Source: Planctomycetota bacterium (lineage in GTDB: Bacteria > Planctomycetota > UBA11346). From it: a DNA stretch of 50,332 nt. The stretch is from positions 1-50,332 of the forward strand of contig JANWWU010000004.1 in NCBI GenBank assembly GCA_025055595.1. The letters are read 5' to 3'. The notes beneath the pieces were generated by a model. That model searched no databases and was not told the DNA's origin. It saw nothing but the letters and a program-made list of their open reading frames with translations. Numbering within the stretch: the first letter of the stretch is position 1; the number at the start of each line of letters is the position of its first letter. The position numbers were made by a program, and so were the translations under genes. This document shows positions 23,945-36,243 of this stretch, piece by piece.

Positions 23945-25168
23945 ATGACCCCATCCCTGTTCCGCACCTACCTCGTCCTCATCGCCTGCCTGGCGGCGCT
24001 GGCGGCGCAAGAGACCGTCAAGGTCGGCGTGCTGCACTCGCTCTCCGGCACGATGGCGATCTCCGAGACTTCGTGCAAGGACGCGACAGTCCTGGCGGTC
24101 GAGGAGATCAACGCCAAGGGCGGCGTGCTCGGCCGTCGCATCGAGGCGGTGGTCGTCGATCCGGCGTCCAACTGGCCGCTGTTTGCCGAGAAAGCCAAAG
24201 AGCTGCTGCTGACCCACAAGGTCGCGGTCGTCTTCGGCTGCTGGACCAGCGTCTCGCGCAAGTCGGTGCTGCCGGTGTTCGAGGAGTACAACGGCCTGCT
24301 CTTCTACCCCGTGCAGTACGAGGGCGAGGAGCAGTCGCTCAATGTCTTCTACACCGCCGCCACGCCCAACCAGCAGCTGGTGCCGGCCGCCGAGTACATG
24401 CTCGAGCAGGGGATGAAGAAGTTCTACCTGCTCGGCACCGACTACGTGTTCCCGCGCACCGCCAACAAGGTGCTCAAGGCGATGCTGAAGAGCCGCGGCA
24501 TCCCGGACAGCAACATCATCGAGCGCTACACGCCCTTCGGTCATAAGGACTACCAGACGATCGTCGCCGAGATCAAGCAGTTCGCGCGCGGCGGCGGGGC
24601 CTGCGTGCTGTCGACGATTAACGGCGACTCGAACGTGCCGTTCTACAAGGAGTTCGCCAACCAGGGCCTGACCAGCGCCGACTGCCCGATCATGGCGTTC
24701 TCGGTCGCCGAGGACGAGCTCAGGGCGATGGAGGTGCCGCCGCTCGTCGGCCACTACGCGGCCTGGAACTACTTCATGTCGATCGATACCCCAGAAAACC
24801 GCGCCTTCGTCAAGGCCTTCCAGGACCGCTATGGCAAGGACCGCGTGACTTCGGATCCGATCGAGGCGGCCTACTACGGCGTCTATGTCTGGAAGGCGGC
24901 GGTCGAGAAGGCCGGCAGCTTCGAGGTCGACAAGGTGCGCGAGGCGGTGTATGGCCTCGAGTTCGACGCCCCGGGCGGCCGCAAGCGCATGCACGCCAAC
25001 AATCAGCACACCTGGAAGCCCGTCTACATCGGCGAGATCCAGCGCAACGGCCAGTTCAAGATCGTCTGGCGCTCCAAGGGCCTGGTCGAGCCCGACAGCT
25101 ACAGCAAGTTCCTGTGGCCGGACGGCAACTTCCCCAAGCCGACGGGCGGCCCGAAGAAGAAGTCCTGA
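23945..25168 (+). CDS. urtA: Urea ABC transporter, substrate-binding protein
   Basis: UrtA captures urea in the periplasm for the UrtBCDE importer. The 407-residue protein has a signal peptide of about 21 residues (YLVLIACLAALAA), then the family sequence VKVGVLHSLSGTMAISE, FGCWTSVSRKSVLPVFEEYNGLLFYPVQYEGEE, FYLLGTDYVFPRTANK and the C-terminal WKPVYIGEIQRNGQF. These segments separate UrtA from branched-chain amino-acid binding proteins. GGAGG four bases before the ATG fixes the start, although the frame is open 99 bases upstream. It is the first gene of urtABCDE and is preceded by a sigma-54 promoter. Confidence 0.96.
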   Translation: MTPSLFRTYLVLIACLAALAAQETVKVGVLHSLSGTMAISETSCKDATVLAVEEINAKGGVLGRRIEAVVVDPASNWPLFAEKAKELLLTHKVAVVFGCWTSVSRKSVLPVFEEYNGLLFYPVQYEGEEQSLNVFYTAATPNQQLVPAAEYMLEQGMKKFYLLGTDYVFPRTANKVLKAMLKSRGIPDSNIIERYTPFGHKDYQTIVAEIKQFARGGGACVLSTINGDSNVPFYKEFANQGLTSADCPIMAFSVAEDELRAMEVPPLVGHYAAWNYFMSIDTPENRAFVKAFQDRYGKDRVTSDPIEAAYYGVYVWKAAVEKAGSFEVDKVREAVYGLEFDAPGGRKRMHANNQHTWKPVYIGEIQRNGQFKIVWRSKGLVEPDSYSKFLWPDGNFPKPTGGPKKKS

Positions 25169-25222
25169 TTCCGCCACCGTCCGTGCACCGCGCCCGGCGT
25201 GCCCGGGCGCGGGAGGAGCCTC

Positions 25223-26851
25223 ATGCCCCGAACGATGTGGCGCTGCGTCCTCGTCCTCGGCTGGCTGGCGGCGTGCGCCGCGGCGCGCGCGCTGCCGGCC
25301 GCCGAGGGCGGCGAGCTGGCGGCGCAGCTGGTGCGTCTGCTCAGCGAGGACAGCGGCGAGCGGGTCGCTGCGATCGAGCGGCTGGCGGCCAGCGGCGAGC
25401 AACGGCTGATCGCCTTCTTTGAAGCCTACCGCCAGGGCGCGGTCGCGGTCCATGAGGACAGGCCGGCGCTCGTCCGCGAGGCCGGCAGCGGCCGCGTGCA
25501 GCTGCTCGACCCGCTGAGCGGGCAGCCGCTCCTAGCCGAGCCGATCGCCAGCGAGGGCCTGCGCGAGCTGCCGATCGGGCGCCGCGAGCGCCTGGCGGCG
25601 AACCACGCCCTGGTGCGCCTGCGCCTCGCCGACCCCGACCCCAAAGCGCGGCTCAACGCCGTCAGCCGGGCCGCGGAGCAGGCCGAGCCCGCGGCGCGCA
25701 GCGCCCTCGAGGCGCTGGCGCAGCGGGACCCGGAGCCGCGGATCCGGCGGATGGCGGCGATCGGCGTCGCGGCGATCGACCTGCGCGATGCCGAGGCCGC
25801 GGTGCGCAAGGCCGCCTGCCAGCGCCTCGCCGAGCTGCGCGCCGTCGGCTGGCGCTCGGCGCTGCTCGAGCTCGGACAGCAGGACCCCGACGGCGCCGTC
25901 CGCGAGGCCGCGCGCCGCGCCCGCGCCGAGATCGAGGCCTGGATGCAGTGGACCGGCATCGTGCAGACGCTGTTCAGCGGGCTGTCGGCCGGCTCGATCC
26001 TCATCGTCATGGCGCTCGGCCTCTCGATCACCTTCGGCCTGATGGGCGTCATCAACATGGCGCACGGCGAGATGCTGATGATCGGCGCCTACGCGACGCT
26101 GCTGACGCAGTGGCTGTTCGCCGCCGTCTTCCCGGCGGCGATGCCCTGGTACTTTCCCTGCGGCATCGTCGCCGCCTTCCTCAGCGCGGCGCTGCTCGGC
26201 TGGCTGATCGAGTTGACGCTGGTGCGGCACCTCTATGGCCGCCCGCTCGAGACCTTGCTGGCGACCTGGGGCGTCAGCTACCTGCTGATCCAGACGATCC
26301 GCGTGATCTTCGGCGACAACCAGGCGGTGACCGCGCCCGACTGGCTGGTCGGCGGCTGGGAGCCGGTGCCGGAGCTCGTCCTGCCGTGGAACCGCCTGTT
26401 CATCATCGGTCTGACGGTGGCGGCGGTGATCGCCGTGTGGTGGCTGCTGGCGCGCACCCGCCTCGGGCTGCTGGTGCGCGCGACGACGCAGAGCCGGCGC
26501 ACGGCGGCGGCGCTCGGCGTCGACACTCGGCGCATCGACGGCGCGACCTTCGCGCTCGGCAGCGGCCTGGCGGGAGCCGCCGGCGCGGCCCTGACCCTGA
26601 TCGGCGGCCTCAAACCGGACATGGGGCAGGAGTTCATCATCGATTCCTTCCTCGTCGTCGCCGCCGGCGGCGTCGGCAACCTCGCCGGCGTGGTCCTCGC
26701 CGGCCTCGGTCTCGGCATGGCCAACAAGCTGCTCGAGCCGCTGGTGCACGCGGTGTGGGCCAAGGTCCTGGTGCTCGCCGCGATCATCCTCTTCCTGCAG
26801 TGGCGGCCGAGCGGGCTGTTCCCGCCGCGCGGGAGGCTGGCCGATGCCTAG
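25223..26851 (+). CDS. urtB: Urea ABC transporter permease with N-terminal HEAT-like domain
   Basis: UrtB is one of two membrane subunits of the urea importer. The 542-residue protein has a signal-like helix, about 200 residues of exported HEAT-like helices (QLVRLLSEDSGERVAAIERLAASGEQRLIAFFEAYR ...), then the LivH-type permease from GLSAGSILIVMALGLSITFGLMGVINMAHGEMLMIGAY to the C-terminal FLQWRPSGLFPPRGR. This long form is normal for UrtB. GGAGG lies just before the ATG at 25223. The stop overlaps the urtC start by eight bases. Confidence 0.95.
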   Translation: MPRTMWRCVLVLGWLAACAAARALPAAEGGELAAQLVRLLSEDSGERVAAIERLAASGEQRLIAFFEAYRQGAVAVHEDRPALVREAGSGRVQLLDPLSGQPLLAEPIASEGLRELPIGRRERLAANHALVRLRLADPDPKARLNAVSRAAEQAEPAARSALEALAQRDPEPRIRRMAAIGVAAIDLRDAEAAVRKAACQRLAELRAVGWRSALLELGQQDPDGAVREAARRARAEIEAWMQWTGIVQTLFSGLSAGSILIVMALGLSITFGLMGVINMAHGEMLMIGAYATLLTQWLFAAVFPAAMPWYFPCGIVAAFLSAALLGWLIELTLVRHLYGRPLETLLATWGVSYLLIQTIRVIFGDNQAVTAPDWLVGGWEPVPELVLPWNRLFIIGLTVAAVIAVWWLLARTRLGLLVRATTQSRRTAAALGVDTRRIDGATFALGSGLAGAAGAALTLIGGLKPDMGQEFIIDSFLVVAAGGVGNLAGVVLAGLGLGMANKLLEPLVHAVWAKVLVLAAIILFLQWRPSGLFPPRGRLADA

Positions 26852-27968
26852 GCCGCGCGACCTCGTCCTCGCCGAGGTCCTGCGTCAGCGCTCCTGGGCG
26901 GCCGGCCTGCGCTGGTTCGACTATCATGCCCCGGCGCTCGGCGCCCTGCTGCTCGTCTTCGGCGTCCCGGGGCTGTTCGCGCTCGGCCTGCTCGATCAGT
27001 CGGACCTCGCGCGCCTCGGCCGCTACTGCTGCCTGGCGATGGTCGCGATCGGCCTCGACCTCGTCTGGGGCTATGCCGGGGTCCTGTCGCTGTGCCAGAT
27101 GATGTTCTTCACGCTCGGCGGCTACGCCTGCGGGATGTACCTGGCGATGCACGGCCCGCTCGACGGCGACGGCATCCCGCGCGCGCTGTTCGTCGTCTCC
27201 AGCGACCCCGAGGGCATGCAGCTGCCCTGGTTCTGGAAGCCCTTCGCCGACCCCTGGTTCGCCGCGGCCGCGGTCGTCCTGATTCCCGGCCTGCTCGCCC
27301 TGGTCTTCGGCTGGCTCGCCTTCCGCAGCCGGATCCGCGGCGTGTACTTCGCGATCATCACCCAGGCGGCGACGGTCGCGCTGTGGCTGCTGTTCTGCCG
27401 CAACGACCTGCAGCTGTGCGGGACCAACGGGCTGACCAACTTCACCCGCCTGCTCGGCTTCGACCTGACGGCGACCGCGACCAAGGTCGGGCTGTATATC
27501 GTCTCGGCGGCGACGCTGGTGCTGACCGCCTGGGCGGTGCTGCGCCTGACCGCGACCCGCTTCGGACGCCTGCTGCTGGCGGTGCGCGACAACGAGGCGC
27601 GGCTGCGCTTCCTCGGCTACGATCCGGTCGCGTACAAGACCGCGGCCTTCGTCATCGCCGCCGTCATCGCCGGCATCGCCGGCGCCCTGTACACGCCGCA
27701 GACCGGCATCATCACGCCGGCGAACATGACGGCGATCGAGTCGATCCTCGTCGTCGTCTGGGTGGCGGTCGGCGGCCGCGGCACGGTGACCGGCGCCGTC
27801 GTCGGCGCCCTGGCGATCAATCTGCTCTACGCCTGGCTGACCACCGAAGTGCCGCGGCTGTGGCCCTTCATCCTCGGCGCGCTGTTCATCCTCGTCGTGC
27901 TGTTCGCGCCGGGAGGCCTGGTCGGGGCCTGGCGCGCCTTCGTCCGGCGCGGGGAGCGGACGGCATGA
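26844..27968 (+). CDS. urtC: Urea ABC transporter permease
   Basis: UrtC is the second, LivM-type membrane subunit. The 374-residue protein has about ten hydrophobic segments and the family signatures GLDLVWGYAGVLSLCQMMFFTLGGYACGMYL, YFAIITQAATVALWLLFCRNDLQLCGTNGLTNF and NEARLRFLGYDPVAYKTAAF. A GGAGG about ten bases ahead of the ATG lies in the urtB coding sequence. The stop overlaps the urtD ATG as ATGA, so translation of the operon is tightly coupled. Confidence 0.95.
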   Translation: MPRPRDLVLAEVLRQRSWAAGLRWFDYHAPALGALLLVFGVPGLFALGLLDQSDLARLGRYCCLAMVAIGLDLVWGYAGVLSLCQMMFFTLGGYACGMYLAMHGPLDGDGIPRALFVVSSDPEGMQLPWFWKPFADPWFAAAAVVLIPGLLALVFGWLAFRSRIRGVYFAIITQAATVALWLLFCRNDLQLCGTNGLTNFTRLLGFDLTATATKVGLYIVSAATLVLTAWAVLRLTATRFGRLLLAVRDNEARLRFLGYDPVAYKTAAFVIAAVIAGIAGALYTPQTGIITPANMTAIESILVVVWVAVGGRGTVTGAVVGALAINLLYAWLTTEVPRLWPFILGALFILVVLFAPGGLVGAWRAFVRRGERTA

Positions 27969-28720
27969 GCGACCGCAGCGATATCGTCCAGGTCACCGAT
28001 GTCGTCGTCGAGTTCGACGGCTTCCGCGCGCTCGATGTCCCCTACTTCGGCATCGATCGCGGCGAGCTGCGCGTGCTGATCGGCCCCAACGGCGCGGGCA
28101 AGACGACGCTGTGCGATGTGATCAGCGGCAAGACGCGGCCGAAGAGCGGGCGGATCGTCATCGACGACCGCGAGGTCACGGACTGGCCGGAGACCGCGAT
28201 CGCGCGCCTCGGCGTCGGCCGCAAGTTCCAGACGCCCTCGGTGTTCGATGGCCTCAGCGTCTACGAGAACATGGAGCTCGCCCTGCCCGCGCAGCGCGGC
28301 CTGCGGGGCGCGCTGGCGGGACGCGCCAGCTGGCGCGACGAGCGGCGCATCCTCGCCCTGCTCGAGCGCGTGCATCTGCGCGCGCTGGCGCGCACGCCGG
28401 CGCGCATGCTGTCGCACGGGCAGCGGCAGTGGCTGGAGATCGCGATGCTGATGGTCAGCGGCGCGCGCATCCTGCTTGTCGACGAGCCGGCCGCCGGCCT
28501 GACCGACGACGAGACCCGCCTGACCGCCGAGCTTCTCCGCGATCTCGCCGGCGCGCACACCGTGCTGGTCATCGAGCACGACATGGAGTTCGTCCGCCGC
28601 CTGCAGAGCCGGGTCACCGTCCTCAATGCCGGCAAGATCCTCGCCGAAGGCTCGCTCGAGGCGGTACAGGCCGATCCAAGGGTGCGCGAGGCCTATCTCG
28701 GGCGGGGGAAGCACGGATGA
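27965..28720 (+). CDS. urtD: Urea ABC transporter ATP-binding protein
   Basis: UrtD is one of two ATPases of the urea importer. The 251-residue protein has Walker A GPNGAGKT, the LivG-type segment ARLGVGRKFQTPSVFDGLSVYENMEL, the signature region LSHGQRQWLEIAMLM (LSHGQ instead of LSGGQ, usual for UrtD), Walker B ILLVDEPAAGLTDDE and the switch histidine in VIEHDMEFV. The stop overlaps the urtE ATG. Confidence 0.95.
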   Translation: MSDRSDIVQVTDVVVEFDGFRALDVPYFGIDRGELRVLIGPNGAGKTTLCDVISGKTRPKSGRIVIDDREVTDWPETAIARLGVGRKFQTPSVFDGLSVYENMELALPAQRGLRGALAGRASWRDERRILALLERVHLRALARTPARMLSHGQRQWLEIAMLMVSGARILLVDEPAAGLTDDETRLTAELLRDLAGAHTVLVIEHDMEFVRRLQSRVTVLNAGKILAEGSLEAVQADPRVREAYLGRGKHG

Positions 28721-29415
28721 GCGAGCTCGCCGTCGAAGGGCTGGTCGCCGGCTACGGCGCGGTGCGCGTCCTGCACGGGGTCTCGCTCAGCGTGCGTGGC
28801 GGCGAGATCCTCTGCGTGATGGGGCGCAACGGCGTCGGTAAGACGACCTGCCTGCGCGCGATCATGGGGCAGATGCCGGCCTGGCAGGGCCGGGTGCTGC
28901 TCGACGGCCGCGATGTCACCGCGCAGCCGGCGCACGCGCGGGCGCGCGCCGGGCTCGGCCTGGTGCCGCAGGGCCGCGAGATCTTCCCGCGCTTGACGGT
29001 CCGCGAGAACCTGGAGGTCGCCTTCAGCGCGCGCGGCGCGCGCGAGCCGTCAGCGATCGCCGAAGTCCTCGAGATCTTCCCGGCCCTGCGCGCGCTGCTG
29101 CCGCGCGCCGGCGGCGACCTCTCGGGCGGGCAGCAGCAGCAGCTGGCGATCGCCCGCGCCCTGGTCGGACGGCCGCGCGTCCTGCTGCTCGATGAGCCGA
29201 CCGAGGGCATCCAGCCGAACATCGTCGAGGAGATCGGCCTGGTGCTGCGGCGCCTCGCCAAGCAGGGGCTGGCGATCATCCTCGTCGAGCAGTACCTCGA
29301 CTTCGTCACCGCGATCGGGGACCGCTTCGCGATCGTCGATCGCGGGAGCATCGTCGCCAGCGGCTCGACCCGGGAGCTCGATGCCGAGCTCGTCCGCCGC
29401 TGGCTCAGCGTCTGA
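28717..29415 (+). CDS. urtE: Urea ABC transporter ATP-binding protein
   Basis: UrtE is the LivF-type ATPase that pairs with UrtD. The 232-residue protein has Walker A GRNGVGKT, the Q-loop segment GLGLVPQGREIFPRLTVRENLEV, signature DLSGGQQQQLAIARAL, Walker B VLLLDEPTEGIQPNIV and LVEQYLDF in the place of the H-loop region (glutamine instead of histidine, common in LivF/UrtE). It is the last gene of the transporter set; the next gene begins after 133 bases of regulatory DNA. Confidence 0.95.
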   Translation: MSELAVEGLVAGYGAVRVLHGVSLSVRGGEILCVMGRNGVGKTTCLRAIMGQMPAWQGRVLLDGRDVTAQPAHARARAGLGLVPQGREIFPRLTVRENLEVAFSARGAREPSAIAEVLEIFPALRALLPRAGGDLSGGQQQQLAIARALVGRPRVLLLDEPTEGIQPNIVEEIGLVLRRLAKQGLAIILVEQYLDFVTAIGDRFAIVDRGSIVASGSTRELDAELVRRWLSV

Positions 29416-29510: not shown

Positions 29511-29525
29511 CGGCATGGGATGTGC
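29511..29525 (+). promoter_or_regulatory. Candidate sigma-54 promoter of the regulator gene
   Basis: CGGCATGGGATGTGC has GG and GC separated by exactly ten bases, and 14 of 15 positions match the candidate before flhB. The inferred start of transcription leaves only about 13 bases before the ATG, including the AGGAGG, so the leader would be very short. Moderate to weak support on its own, stronger with the upstream dyads. Confidence 0.42.
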
Positions 29526-29548
29526 GGGCCCAAAGCAGAGGAGGGTCT

Positions 29549-31045
<1,497 letters not shown>

Positions 31046-31072: not shown

Positions 31073-33715
31073 ATGATCCTCGTCGACCCCGCCGGTCCCC
31101 TGGTCGCCGCTGCTATGAGCCATACTCGCGCCCTGTGGCGCAAGCGCTGCGCTGCGGCTGCAGTCGCCTGCGCCTTCGGAACCCCGCAACCGATCGGCCA
31201 GCGCATCCGGGTGCTGGTGCGCGCCGGCGCGGTCGTGCAGGACTGCGATACGACCGCGCGCTGGCGCGGACGCCTGCTGTGCAGCGAGATTCCCGCGCCG
31301 CTCGCGCCCGAGGAGCGCGCGCGCGTGCACGGATTGGCCCTGCGCCTCGCGGTGCCGGATGCCGATCTCGAGTTCGCGCGCGGGCCCGAGGACTGGGTGC
31401 TGGTCGAAGCGCGGCCGGCGCTGGCGACCCCGCAGCCGCTGACGCCCGGCACCCGCTGCTTCGTCGCCACGCTCGCCGCCTGGGCTCCCTATCGCGGTCC
31501 GATCACGGCGGTGCAGGCGCCGCCGGAGGCCCGGGTGCTGGTCAGCCGCGGCCAGCAGGTCGATCTCGCGGCCGGCGCCCCGCTCGCCGAGATCGTCGCC
31601 TGCGGCGCCCAGCGCGCGCAGGCGCTGCAGGCGCTGGAGCGCGCCGTGCTGGCGCTCGACATCGGCGGCCCCGTCAGCGATGCCTGCCGCCTGCTCGCCG
31701 CCTTGCCGCGGCTCGCCGCCGGGCTGCGCACGATCCGCGACCTCGATGATCTGCAGGCGGAGCCGCTGGCGGTCGAGGTCCTCGAGCCCGGCCTGGCGAC
31801 CAGCATCCAGGACTGGCCGGGCCGCCTCGGGCACTGGGACGTCGGGGTCCCGCCCTCCGGCCCCTTCGATGACCTCGCCTTCCGCCTCGCCAATCGCCAG
31901 GTCGGCAACCCGCTCGGCGCGCCGGCGCTGGAGATCACCTTGAACGGGCCGCGGCTGCGCTTCCTACAGCCGAGCATCGTCTGCTTGGCCGGCCCGCCGC
32001 GCCGCGCGCTGCTCGATGGCGAGCCGCTGCCGCTGTGGAAGGCGGTCGCCGTGCCGGCGGGCAGCGTGCTCGACCTGCGCGCGCCGCCGACCCAGGGCTG
32101 CCGCTCCTACCTCGCGGTGCGCCACGGCTTCAAGGTCGCCGATTACCTCGGCAGCGGCGCGACCTTCGAGCTCGGCCGCTTCGGCGGCCACGCCTGCCGC
32201 AACCTGCAGGCCGGCGACCTGCTGCCGCTGGCGCGCGCGGCGCCGGCCAGCGAGCTGAGCTCCTGCCCGCCGCCGCTGCCGTCGAACGCGCGCCCGCAGT
32301 ACCCGCGCGCCTGGCAGATCGCGGTCGTCGTCGGGCCGCAGGCCGCCCCCGACTTCCTGACGACCGACGACATGCAGATGCTGTGGGGCACGGAGTGGCG
32401 CGTGCATCCCAACAGCAACCGCACGGGCGTGCGCCTGATCGGCCCGAAGCCGCGCTGGGCGCGCCCCGACGGCGGCGAGGCCGGCCTGCACCCCTCGAAT
32501 GTCCACGACAACGCTTACGCCTTCGGCTCGATCAACATGACCGGCGACACGCCGATCCTGCTCGGCCCCGATGGCCCGAGCCTCGGCGGCTTCGTCTGTC
32601 CCGGCGTCGTGCCGCTGGCCGAGCGCTGGAAGATCGGGCAGCTGCGGCCCAACGACACCGTCCGCTTCGTGCCGATCGCGCCGGACGAGGCGGAGCGGCG
32701 GCGCGGCGACCAGCTGGCCCTGCTCGCCCAGAGCGCGCCGGCGCTGCTCGGCAGCGAGCGGCGCGAGGCGCGCGGCGAGGACCGCGACGCGATCATCGCG
32801 CGCCGCGGCGACTGGTGCCTGCGGCGCGCCGGCGACGACCACATCCTCGTCGAGGTCGGCGACATGGTCCTCGACATCGGCCTGCGCCTGCGCATCCACC
32901 TGCTGTGGCAGCGCCTGACCGCGCAGCGCGTGCCCGGCATCGTCGACCTGACGCCCGGCGCGCGCAGCCTGCTCGTCCATGTCGATCCCGCGGTGCTGCC
33001 GCTGGCGCGCGCCAGCGCCCTGCTCTGCGATCTCGTCGCCGGCATCGGCAGTCCCGAGGGCGTGCGCGTCCCGCAGCGCATCGTGTGGATGCCGATGGCC
33101 TGGGACGATCCCGACACCCGCGCCGCGATCGCCCGCTACATGCGCACGATCAACCCCGATGCGCCGTGGTGCCCCTCGAACATCGAGTTCATCCGCCGCA
33201 TCAACGGCCTCGACAGCGTCGACGAGGTGCGGCGCATCGTCTTCGATGCCGCCTATCTCGTGCTCGGCCTCGGCGATGTCTACCTCGGGGCGCCGGCGGC
33301 GACGCCGCTCGATCCGCGCCACCGCCTGGTGACGACCAAGTACAACCCGGCCCGCACCTGGACGGCGCAGGGCACGGTCGGCATCGGCGGCGCCTACATG
33401 TGCATCTACGGGATGGACAGCCCCGGCGGCTACCAGCTCGTCGGCCGCTCGCTCGAGATCTGGCACCGCTGGGATCCCGAGCCCTGCCTCCTGCGCTTCT
33501 TCGACATCGTCCGCTTCTACGAAGTGCCGTACGAGGAGCTGCTGCGGATGCGCGCCAGCGACTTCCGCCCGCGCATCGAAGAGGGCGAGTTCGTGTGGGA
33601 CGAGTACCGCAGCTTCCTCGAGCGCGAGCAGGCGAGCATCGCCGCTTTCCGCGAGCGGCAGCGCGCCGCCTTCGTCGCCGAGCGCGAGCGCTGGCGGGCG
33701 GCGAAGAAGACATGA
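31073..33715 (+). CDS. Urea carboxylase-like protein with degenerate biotin carboxylase and no biotinyl domain
   Basis: The 880-residue protein contains the carboxyltransferase half of urea carboxylase: a KipA/AHS2 domain (about 235-545: EPGLATSIQDWPGRLGHWDVGVPPSGPFDDLAF, PILLGPDGPSLGGFVCPGVV) and a KipI/AHS1 domain (about 582-815: RAGDDHILVEVGDM, MCIYGMDSPGGYQLVGR). Residues 1-220 align with the second half of a biotin carboxylase, but without its function. The glycine loop is VDPAGP and the ExNxRxQVEH site reads VEARPALATPQ (31403 onward), while DCDTTARWRGRLLCSEIPAP still matches ERDCSxQRRxQKxxEEAPAP. The first 150 or so residues are missing, as is the C-terminal AMKM biotinyl domain. Normal enzymes are about 1200 residues. 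Its ATG overlap with allophanate hydrolase argues for a role in urea use. Confidence 0.85.
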   Translation: MILVDPAGPLVAAAMSHTRALWRKRCAAAAVACAFGTPQPIGQRIRVLVRAGAVVQDCDTTARWRGRLLCSEIPAPLAPEERARVHGLALRLAVPDADLEFARGPEDWVLVEARPALATPQPLTPGTRCFVATLAAWAPYRGPITAVQAPPEARVLVSRGQQVDLAAGAPLAEIVACGAQRAQALQALERAVLALDIGGPVSDACRLLAALPRLAAGLRTIRDLDDLQAEPLAVEVLEPGLATSIQDWPGRLGHWDVGVPPSGPFDDLAFRLANRQVGNPLGAPALEITLNGPRLRFLQPSIVCLAGPPRRALLDGEPLPLWKAVAVPAGSVLDLRAPPTQGCRSYLAVRHGFKVADYLGSGATFELGRFGGHACRNLQAGDLLPLARAAPASELSSCPPPLPSNARPQYPRAWQIAVVVGPQAAPDFLTTDDMQMLWGTEWRVHPNSNRTGVRLIGPKPRWARPDGGEAGLHPSNVHDNAYAFGSINMTGDTPILLGPDGPSLGGFVCPGVVPLAERWKIGQLRPNDTVRFVPIAPDEAERRRGDQLALLAQSAPALLGSERREARGEDRDAIIARRGDWCLRRAGDDHILVEVGDMVLDIGLRLRIHLLWQRLTAQRVPGIVDLTPGARSLLVHVDPAVLPLARASALLCDLVAGIGSPEGVRVPQRIVWMPMAWDDPDTRAAIARYMRTINPDAPWCPSNIEFIRRINGLDSVDEVRRIVFDAAYLVLGLGDVYLGAPAATPLDPRHRLVTTKYNPARTWTAQGTVGIGGAYMCIYGMDSPGGYQLVGRSLEIWHRWDPEPCLLRFFDIVRFYEVPYEELLRMRASDFRPRIEEGEFVWDEYRSFLEREQASIAAFRERQRAAFVAERERWRAAKKT

Positions 33716-35472: not shown

Positions 35473-36243
35473 TCAGGGCCTGGCACGAGCGCGGTTCCAG
35501 GCGACGCAGTCGGCGTAGGCGACGCCGCTGCCGCCGAAGATGTCGAGGGCGCTGCCGATCGTCAGGTCGACGCGGCCTTCGGAGAGGTCCTCGACCAGGG
35601 CGAGGTCGGCGAGCGCGCGCGCGCCGCCGGCGTAGGTGACGGGCAGCGGGCTCCAGCGGCCGAGGCACTCGACGAGCTCGGCGTCGATGCCGTTGCACAG
35701 GCCCTCGACATCGGCGGCGTGGACGAGGAACTCGCTGCACTGCTCGGCGAGGCGCGCGAACAGCGCGGCGCTGAGCTCGGTGTCGGTCAGCCGCTGCCAG
35801 CGCTGGGTGGCGACGACCCAGCCGCAGCCCTGGCGGCGGCACGAGAGATCGACGACCAGCCGCTCGCGGCCGATCGCCTGCGCGAGCGCCGCAAGACGCT
35901 CGGGGGCGAAACGGCCTTCCGGAAACAGCCAGCTGGTGACGATCACCTTCTCGGCGCCGGCAGCGAGCCAGCTCCGGGCATTGTCGGCCGTGATCCCGCC
36001 GCCGACCCGCAGGCCGCCGGGCCAGGCGGCGAGCGCGGCGCGCGCCGCCGTCTCGTTGCCGGGGCCGAGCATGATCACATGGCCGCCGCGCAGCTCGTCG
36101 CGGCGATAGAGGGCCGCGTAGTGCTCGGGCGGCAGGCGCGAGACGAAGTTGGTGCGCGGACGCTCGCCATCGCGCAGGCTGCCGCCGACGATCTGAGTGA
36201 CGAGCCCGCCGTGGAGGTCGATGCAGGGGCGGAAGAGGGTCAC
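35473..36243 (-). CDS. hisA: ProFAR isomerase HisA, eukaryotic type
   Basis: HisA converts ProFAR to PRFAR in histidine synthesis. The 256-residue protein resembles the fungal/plant HIS6 form rather than the usual bacterial form: FRPCIDLHGGLVTQIVGGSL, TNFVSRLPPEHYAALYRRDELRGGHVIMLG, GGLRVGGGI, EKVIVTSWLF, VVDLSCRRQG, EFLVHAADVEGLCNGID, VTYAGGA and DLTIGSALDIFGGSG. The start is a GTG overlapping the stop of the upstream HEAT-like gene. No other his gene is adjacent. The identification is firm; that this is the eukaryotic-type subfamily rests on my recall of its motifs. Confidence 0.9.
   Translation of the reverse strand: MTLFRPCIDLHGGLVTQIVGGSLRDGERPRTNFVSRLPPEHYAALYRRDELRGGHVIMLGPGNETAARAALAAWPGGLRVGGGITADNARSWLAAGAEKVIVTSWLFPEGRFAPERLAALAQAIGRERLVVDLSCRRQGCGWVVATQRWQRLTDTELSAALFARLAEQCSEFLVHAADVEGLCNGIDAELVECLGRWSPLPVTYAGGARALADLALVEDLSEGRVDLTIGSALDIFGGSGVAYADCVAWNRARARP

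Follow-up and report, generated by a model that had tools for sequence, protein, structure and literature searches.

The window, a stretch of 50,332 nucleotides, contains a collinear row of genes in the order urtABCDE, sigma-54-dependent activator, carboxylase and allophanate hydrolase. The genes, together with the features of the carboxylase, are listed below.

23945..25168, plus strand: UrtA, urea ABC transporter substrate-binding protein (TIGR03407, 581 bits, cut-off 493)
25199..26851, plus strand: UrtB permease (open reading frame; 67% identity to the collinear gene of genome G003)
26844..27968, plus strand: UrtC permease (74% identity to the collinear G003 gene)
27965..28720, plus strand: UrtD ATPase, start inferred from the ATGA overlap (open reading frame; collinear G003 match by position)
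28717..29415, plus strand: UrtE ATPase, start inferred from the ATGA overlap (67% identity to the collinear G003 gene)
29522..31045, plus strand: sigma-54-dependent activator with AAA+ and Fis-type HTH domains (domain matches)
31073..33715, plus strand: short urea carboxylase of 880 aa, consisting of a biotin-carboxylase remnant, CT_A_B and CT_C_D, with no BCCP (open reading frame, Pfam/NCBIfam, alignments)
31073..31768, plus strand: degenerate biotin-carboxylase remnant, residues 1-232, with the N-terminal domain and glycine loop deleted (hhalign, short-form model versus AccC)
31841..32674, plus strand: CT_A_B carboxyltransferase domain, residues 257-534 (Pfam PF02626, 294 bits, full profile)
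32534..32536, plus strand: codon of Asn488, aligned to Kluyveromyces lactis (K. lactis) N1330; Asn is the urea type, Asp the guanidine type (alignments, PMC11410670)
32819..33493, plus strand: CT_C_D carboxyltransferase domain, residues 583-807 (Pfam PF02682, 130 bits)
33275..33277, plus strand: codon of Asp735, aligned to the conserved K. lactis D1584 (alignment, PMC11410670)
33338..33340, plus strand: codon of Lys756, counterpart of K. lactis K1605, which probably acts as general base in carboxyl transfer (alignment, PMC5770610)
33712..35343, plus strand: allophanate hydrolase, AtzF type with AH_C (TIGR02713, 665 bits, cut-off 511; PF01425, PF21986)

No guanidine riboswitch was found in the window. 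In published descriptions, a urea or guanidine carboxylase is one polypeptide in which biotin carboxylase (BC) and biotinyl (BCCP) domains accompany the carboxyltransferase (CT) domains. The carboxylase frame of the window is open throughout its 880 codons, and its stop codon shares an ATGA with the start codon of the allophanate hydrolase gene at 33712, in agreement with the uninterrupted, coupled frame described in the first-pass annotation. CT_A_B and CT_C_D, both required of a urea carboxylase (EC 6.3.4.6), were matched by Pfam over their full length, so that the reported retention of both CT domains was confirmed. With respect to the remaining domains, Biotin_carb_C matched only below threshold (residues 138-210, 18.7 bits at a cut-off of 32.4), while Biotin_lipoyl gave no Pfam match at all and the chain stops before the BCCP position, as had been noted from the sequence. 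The urea carboxylase model TIGR02712 aligned at profile positions 348-1110 of 1201 and yielded 916 bits at a cut-off of 1304. A model of the full protein by AlphaFold (mean pLDDT 74.8) matched the structures 5i8i and 3va7. Compared to canonical urea carboxylase/urea amidolyase (TIGR02712; K. lactis 3va7, 5i8i), the window protein shares the CT domains with their catalytic residues, the Asn at position 1330 and the pairing with allophanate hydrolase. In contrast, a functional BC and a C-terminal BCCP domain in the same chain are missing: the N-terminal BC domain, the glycine loop, the ExNxRxQVEH site and the BCCP are absent, and the protein has 880 rather than approximately 1200 residues.

The N-terminal part had been regarded as a shortened BC. 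A phmmer search of this remnant alone against the PDB returned nothing meaningful, and profile comparison was therefore needed. The N-terminal profile of seven short proteins (see below) matched canonical BC by hhalign with a probability of 98.8% (E = 4.9e-17, 197 columns), while a control comparison with unrelated allophanate hydrolases gave 0.2%. A second model, for which only six short proteins were used, also matched the AccC-length frames of G005, G008, G010, G011, G018 and G020, with E values between 4e-5 and 9e-4. Thus, the derivation of residues 1-220 from BC held up. An AlphaFold model of the N-terminal part matched BC folds as well; this is supporting evidence only, since the model is weak (mean pLDDT 60) and its input alignment consisted of canonical BC sequences. 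One detail of the earlier reading had to be revised. The motif VDPAGP does not represent a mutated glycine loop, because the remnant begins downstream of the loop, which is deleted along with the BC N-terminal domain. The region of the catalytic ExNxRxQVEH site is mostly deleted, and LVEARP occupies the place of FLEVNTR.

The search for the short form covered 198 related genomes and, in a second round, the complete class (23 genomes, one family). The same architecture occurred in six genomes besides that of the window (G000), namely G003, where the gene is cut by the contig end, G004, G006, G008, G017 and G018. The seven genomes span five genera. As the architecture recurs in seven genomes (in one of them up to the contig end), a local assembly error as the origin of the short form was ruled out, and the pathway variant suggested in the first-pass annotation was upheld as real. 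A scan of named genomes covered 80 loci, 75 of which provided open frames of canonical length; the remaining five, which were left out, comprise frames truncated by a contig end, L074 (short, with the BC motif) and L115 (an outlier). All 75 measurable intact homologues carry BC motifs, and none is of the short form. In a quick tree of the CT domains, a moderately supported branch (SH-aLRT 91) had all seven short proteins on the same side. Within the same class, G010 encodes a frame of 1222 aa with BC and BCCP, which was placed among the canonical enzymes. This carboxylase (L008), a full-length guanidine-type protein, clusters with its counterparts from other phyla and was possibly acquired separately. 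In the open-licence literature, we found no description of a urea or guanidine carboxylase form without BC and BCCP.

The two parts of the short proteins have diverged to very different degrees. In 76 canonical enzymes, 212 columns of the CT domains show an identity of at least 97%. Of these columns, 178 are retained by every one of the six long short-form proteins, while the window protein retains 197; of 124 BC columns selected in the same way, the corresponding numbers are 4 and 24. Likewise, pN of the CT domains was 0.21-0.32 at a pS of 0.52-0.72, while the remnant displayed a pN of 0.49-0.55 at a pS of 0.58-0.73, with synonymous sites near saturation in both cases. By these sequence comparisons, purifying selection maintains the CT domains, whereas constraint on the remnant is relaxed. 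That the remnant evolves nearly freely speaks against its having an important role, and we take it for a vestige that may still serve as a scaffold. The previous statement that decay is unlikely therefore applies to the CT domains, where catalytic residues are also kept, and not to the BC part. The relaxed constraint on the remnant might be taken to indicate that the whole protein is dead or decaying and that the operon persists by chance. We consider this very improbable, given the selection acting on the CT domains, the retained catalytic residues, the occurrence of the short form across five genera and the guanidine-II riboswitches found at four of its loci.

An Asp at the position of K. 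lactis residue 1330 separates guanidine from urea carboxylases, and an Asp at 1584 is required (PMC11410670); K1605 probably serves as the general base when the carboxyl group is transferred (PMC5770610). According to the alignments, the window protein has D735 and K756 at the two catalytic positions and the urea-type N488, not Asp, at the position of 1330. All five short-form relatives sequenced across this site have Asp. Among the 80 named homologues, only that of Cerasicoccus frondis (L123) has Asn; its locus contains urtA, urtB, urtC, urtE and an allophanate hydrolase gene, with no hit for cgdA or cgdB. Both of the latter genes were detected for nearly all other named homologues, the exceptions being L062, L095, L106 and L115; the frames of the first three run off the contig start. 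The stretches WTAxGTVGIGG and MDSPGGYQL are common to L123 and the window protein, and several window-specific residues are shared.

The neighbourhoods of the relatives were analyzed with genes called by a simple script, part of which were confirmed with NCBIfam, and riboswitches were sought with Rfam. The short-form relatives sit beside the carboxyguanidine deiminase genes cgdA/cgdB, with guanidine-II riboswitches at four loci. In G018, CgdA, CgdB, the short carboxylase and allophanate hydrolase are encoded in one row and all three partners were confirmed; the fetched stretch yielded no riboswitch with Rfam and no identified importer. In G004, CgdA (UAAP1) and CgdB (UAAP2) were confirmed directly upstream of the carboxylase, accompanied by a confirmed SsuA-type binding protein and ATPase and three guanidine-II riboswitches; the contig stops immediately behind the carboxylase, so that allophanate hydrolase is not visible. 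The G006 locus has a confirmed CgdB, two riboswitches and permease-like frames, and a CgdA candidate and a frame the size of allophanate hydrolase come from the gene caller only. At the G017 locus, allophanate hydrolase was confirmed approximately 140 bases downstream of the carboxylase, two riboswitches and ABC-type frames are present, and the stretch immediately before the carboxylase encodes the CgdB-type C-terminal peptide NCPQLNNPCNAY. CgdA was confirmed for G008, where the script called neither CgdB nor the carboxylase nor allophanate hydrolase and Rfam detected no riboswitch. In G003, CgdA- and CgdB-type frames were recognized by eye next to two riboswitches; the carboxylase is cut by the contig end, and allophanate hydrolase is not visible. 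The guanidine setting is common to the short-form relatives, although the contiguous set cgdA-cgdB-carboxylase-allophanate hydrolase with every partner confirmed could be seen in only one of the six, G018. These relatives share the setting of the known guanidine carboxylase operon (CgdA/CgdB, guanidine-II riboswitch) and differ from it in lacking BC and BCCP, while the window member is of the urea type and located at a urt locus.

With regard to the window protein, the signature residue and the gene context suggest that urea is the substrate. A different substrate, as once considered, is thus not favored here by N488 and the position after urtABCDE, even though the relatives are of the guanidine type. 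The genome of the window also contains, on contig C61 (L162, 8374-13503), two DUF1989 genes of the cgdA/cgdB type and two guanidine-II riboswitches, together with divergent importer-like frames and a BioD-like frame. Neither a carboxylase nor allophanate hydrolase gene lies beside cgdA/cgdB on this contig, and no second full urea carboxylase was found in the genome. The enzyme may hence have some guanidine activity, or a guanidine carboxylase may be missing from the assembly. It could even be that the window enzyme is a guanidine carboxylase serving the distant cgdAB instead of a urea carboxylase, as its nearest relatives are of the guanidine type and the genome keeps cgdAB and the riboswitches with no other carboxylase. 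We regard this as improbable in view of Asn488, the urt neighbourhood, the lack of a guanidine riboswitch in the window and the urea-type residues common to the window protein and L123.

The suggested search for a free BC and carrier turned up a single candidate for each in the genome of the window: the only Biotin_carb_C match is AccC on contig C52, and of four Biotin_lipoyl matches only AccB has the biotin motif (EAMKV), the other three having lipoyl motifs. A dedicated BC or BCCP was not found in this metagenome-assembled genome (MAG), which is approximately 90% complete. From the single AccC and single AccB we therefore infer a split enzyme. Since the MAG is incomplete, a dedicated BC and carrier might be encoded in its unassembled part; this is quite unlikely, as the six other short-form genomes, which were assembled separately, each have one over-threshold BC of AccC length, and no BC gene was seen in the neighbourhoods. 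G004 additionally has two sub-threshold BC matches, the short carboxylase itself and a frame unlike a carboxylase.

A precedent for a carrier in trans may be found in PDB 9yx5, in which MSMEG_0435-0436, a urea-carboxylase-CT-like pair, is bound to the acyl-CoA carboxylase complex of Mycobacterium smegmatis with an AccA3 chain listed. The entry makes such a carrier plausible; its title states binding and not urea carboxylation, so it does not provide proof. In acyl-CoA carboxylases with a shared alpha subunit, such as mycobacterial AccA3, one BC/BCCP is similarly proposed to serve several CT subunits. In contrast to that system, the partners of the window protein would be AccC and AccB, and both CT halves reside in one chain.

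Alternatively, the enzyme could be independent of biotin, its CT domains activating urea, for example by phosphorylation, or carboxylating it directly without carboxybiotin. In the 5-oxoprolinase subunits PxpB and PxpC (YbgJ/YbgK, 5dud), the CT_A_B and CT_C_D folds are homologous, and phosphorylation of the substrate is the presumed reaction (PMC13274462). The window protein, for its part, lacks a BC active site as well as a biotin site. PxpB and PxpC, however, are separate chains with another signature, and the window protein stays far below the cut-offs of both family models (129 of 500 bits for PxpC, 39 of 145.6 bits for PxpB), compared to 916 bits for urea carboxylase and 249 bits for urea_amlyse_rel (TIGR00724). 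As it also keeps the D1584/K1605 residues required of urea and guanidine carboxylases, and no PxpA homologue or PxpA-type partner was seen among the operon frames, this 5-oxoprolinase-like option, raised in the first-pass annotation, appears unlikely and is weaker than the use of a carrier in trans. The latter, with subunits of acetyl-CoA carboxylase as donor, is the best explanation, in line with the single AccC and AccB, the retained CT residues and the example of 9yx5.

The sequence data establish that the protein has the architecture described, with a BC-derived remnant and conserved CT domains, that it has lost BC and BCCP, and that this form recurs in relatives; they also establish the gene context, the single AccC/AccB pair and the lack of a detectable urease (see below). 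Taken together, we consider the window protein probably to be the CT component of a split biotin-dependent urea carboxylase that is charged by AccC/AccB; AccB/AccC as donor, the carboxylation activity, the substrate specificity and the regulation are the inferred elements of this proposal. With ATP and bicarbonate, AccC would carboxylate the biotin of AccB in trans, and the resulting AccB-carboxybiotin would dock at the two CT domains of the window protein. The carboxyl group would then be passed to urea in the Asn488-type pocket, with Lys756 as the base, to give allophanate, from which the co-translated allophanate hydrolase would release ammonia and CO2. UrtABCDE would import the urea, and control of the operon probably lies with the sigma-54 activator. 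For the short urea and guanidine carboxylases in general, borrowing of charged biotin from acetyl-CoA carboxylase is most likely. A conserved lineage without BC and BCCP would show that the CT half is able to work as a separate subunit, and would make the question of a shared carrier directly testable with AccB and AccC. If true, a split carboxylase links nitrogen acquisition to fatty-acid synthesis. Domain-based annotation would misname such genes as truncated or broken.

No urease was detected in the genome of the window: PF00449 gave no match for the alpha subunit and the best TIGR01792 score was 28 bits at a cut-off of 680, in a MAG of approximately 90% completeness from which a urease, like a separate BC or BCCP, could be absent. 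Urease is present in all seven relatives tested. In G003, which belongs to the same genus, the genes after urtABCDE (contig C155, L163) are ureD, fused ureAB and ureC, at the place of the activator, the short carboxylase and allophanate hydrolase; ureC is backed by PF00449, and the names ureD and ureAB come from reading of the frames. The carboxylase and allophanate hydrolase genes may have moved from the cgd locus on C61 to the urt locus. There is about an even chance that the whole scenario is correct, in which a stand-alone CT chain uses the housekeeping AccB/AccC and, in one species, has replaced urease at the urt locus after a switch from guanidine to urea. The window would then represent a nickel-free route at a place where a relative of the same genus has urease.

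At the window locus itself, the first 163 residues of the activator (29522-30010) have no Pfam match and may form an undescribed sensory domain. Just past the urea operon, beside a tRNA gene, a HisA/HisF-like protein is encoded on the minus strand (35476-36243).
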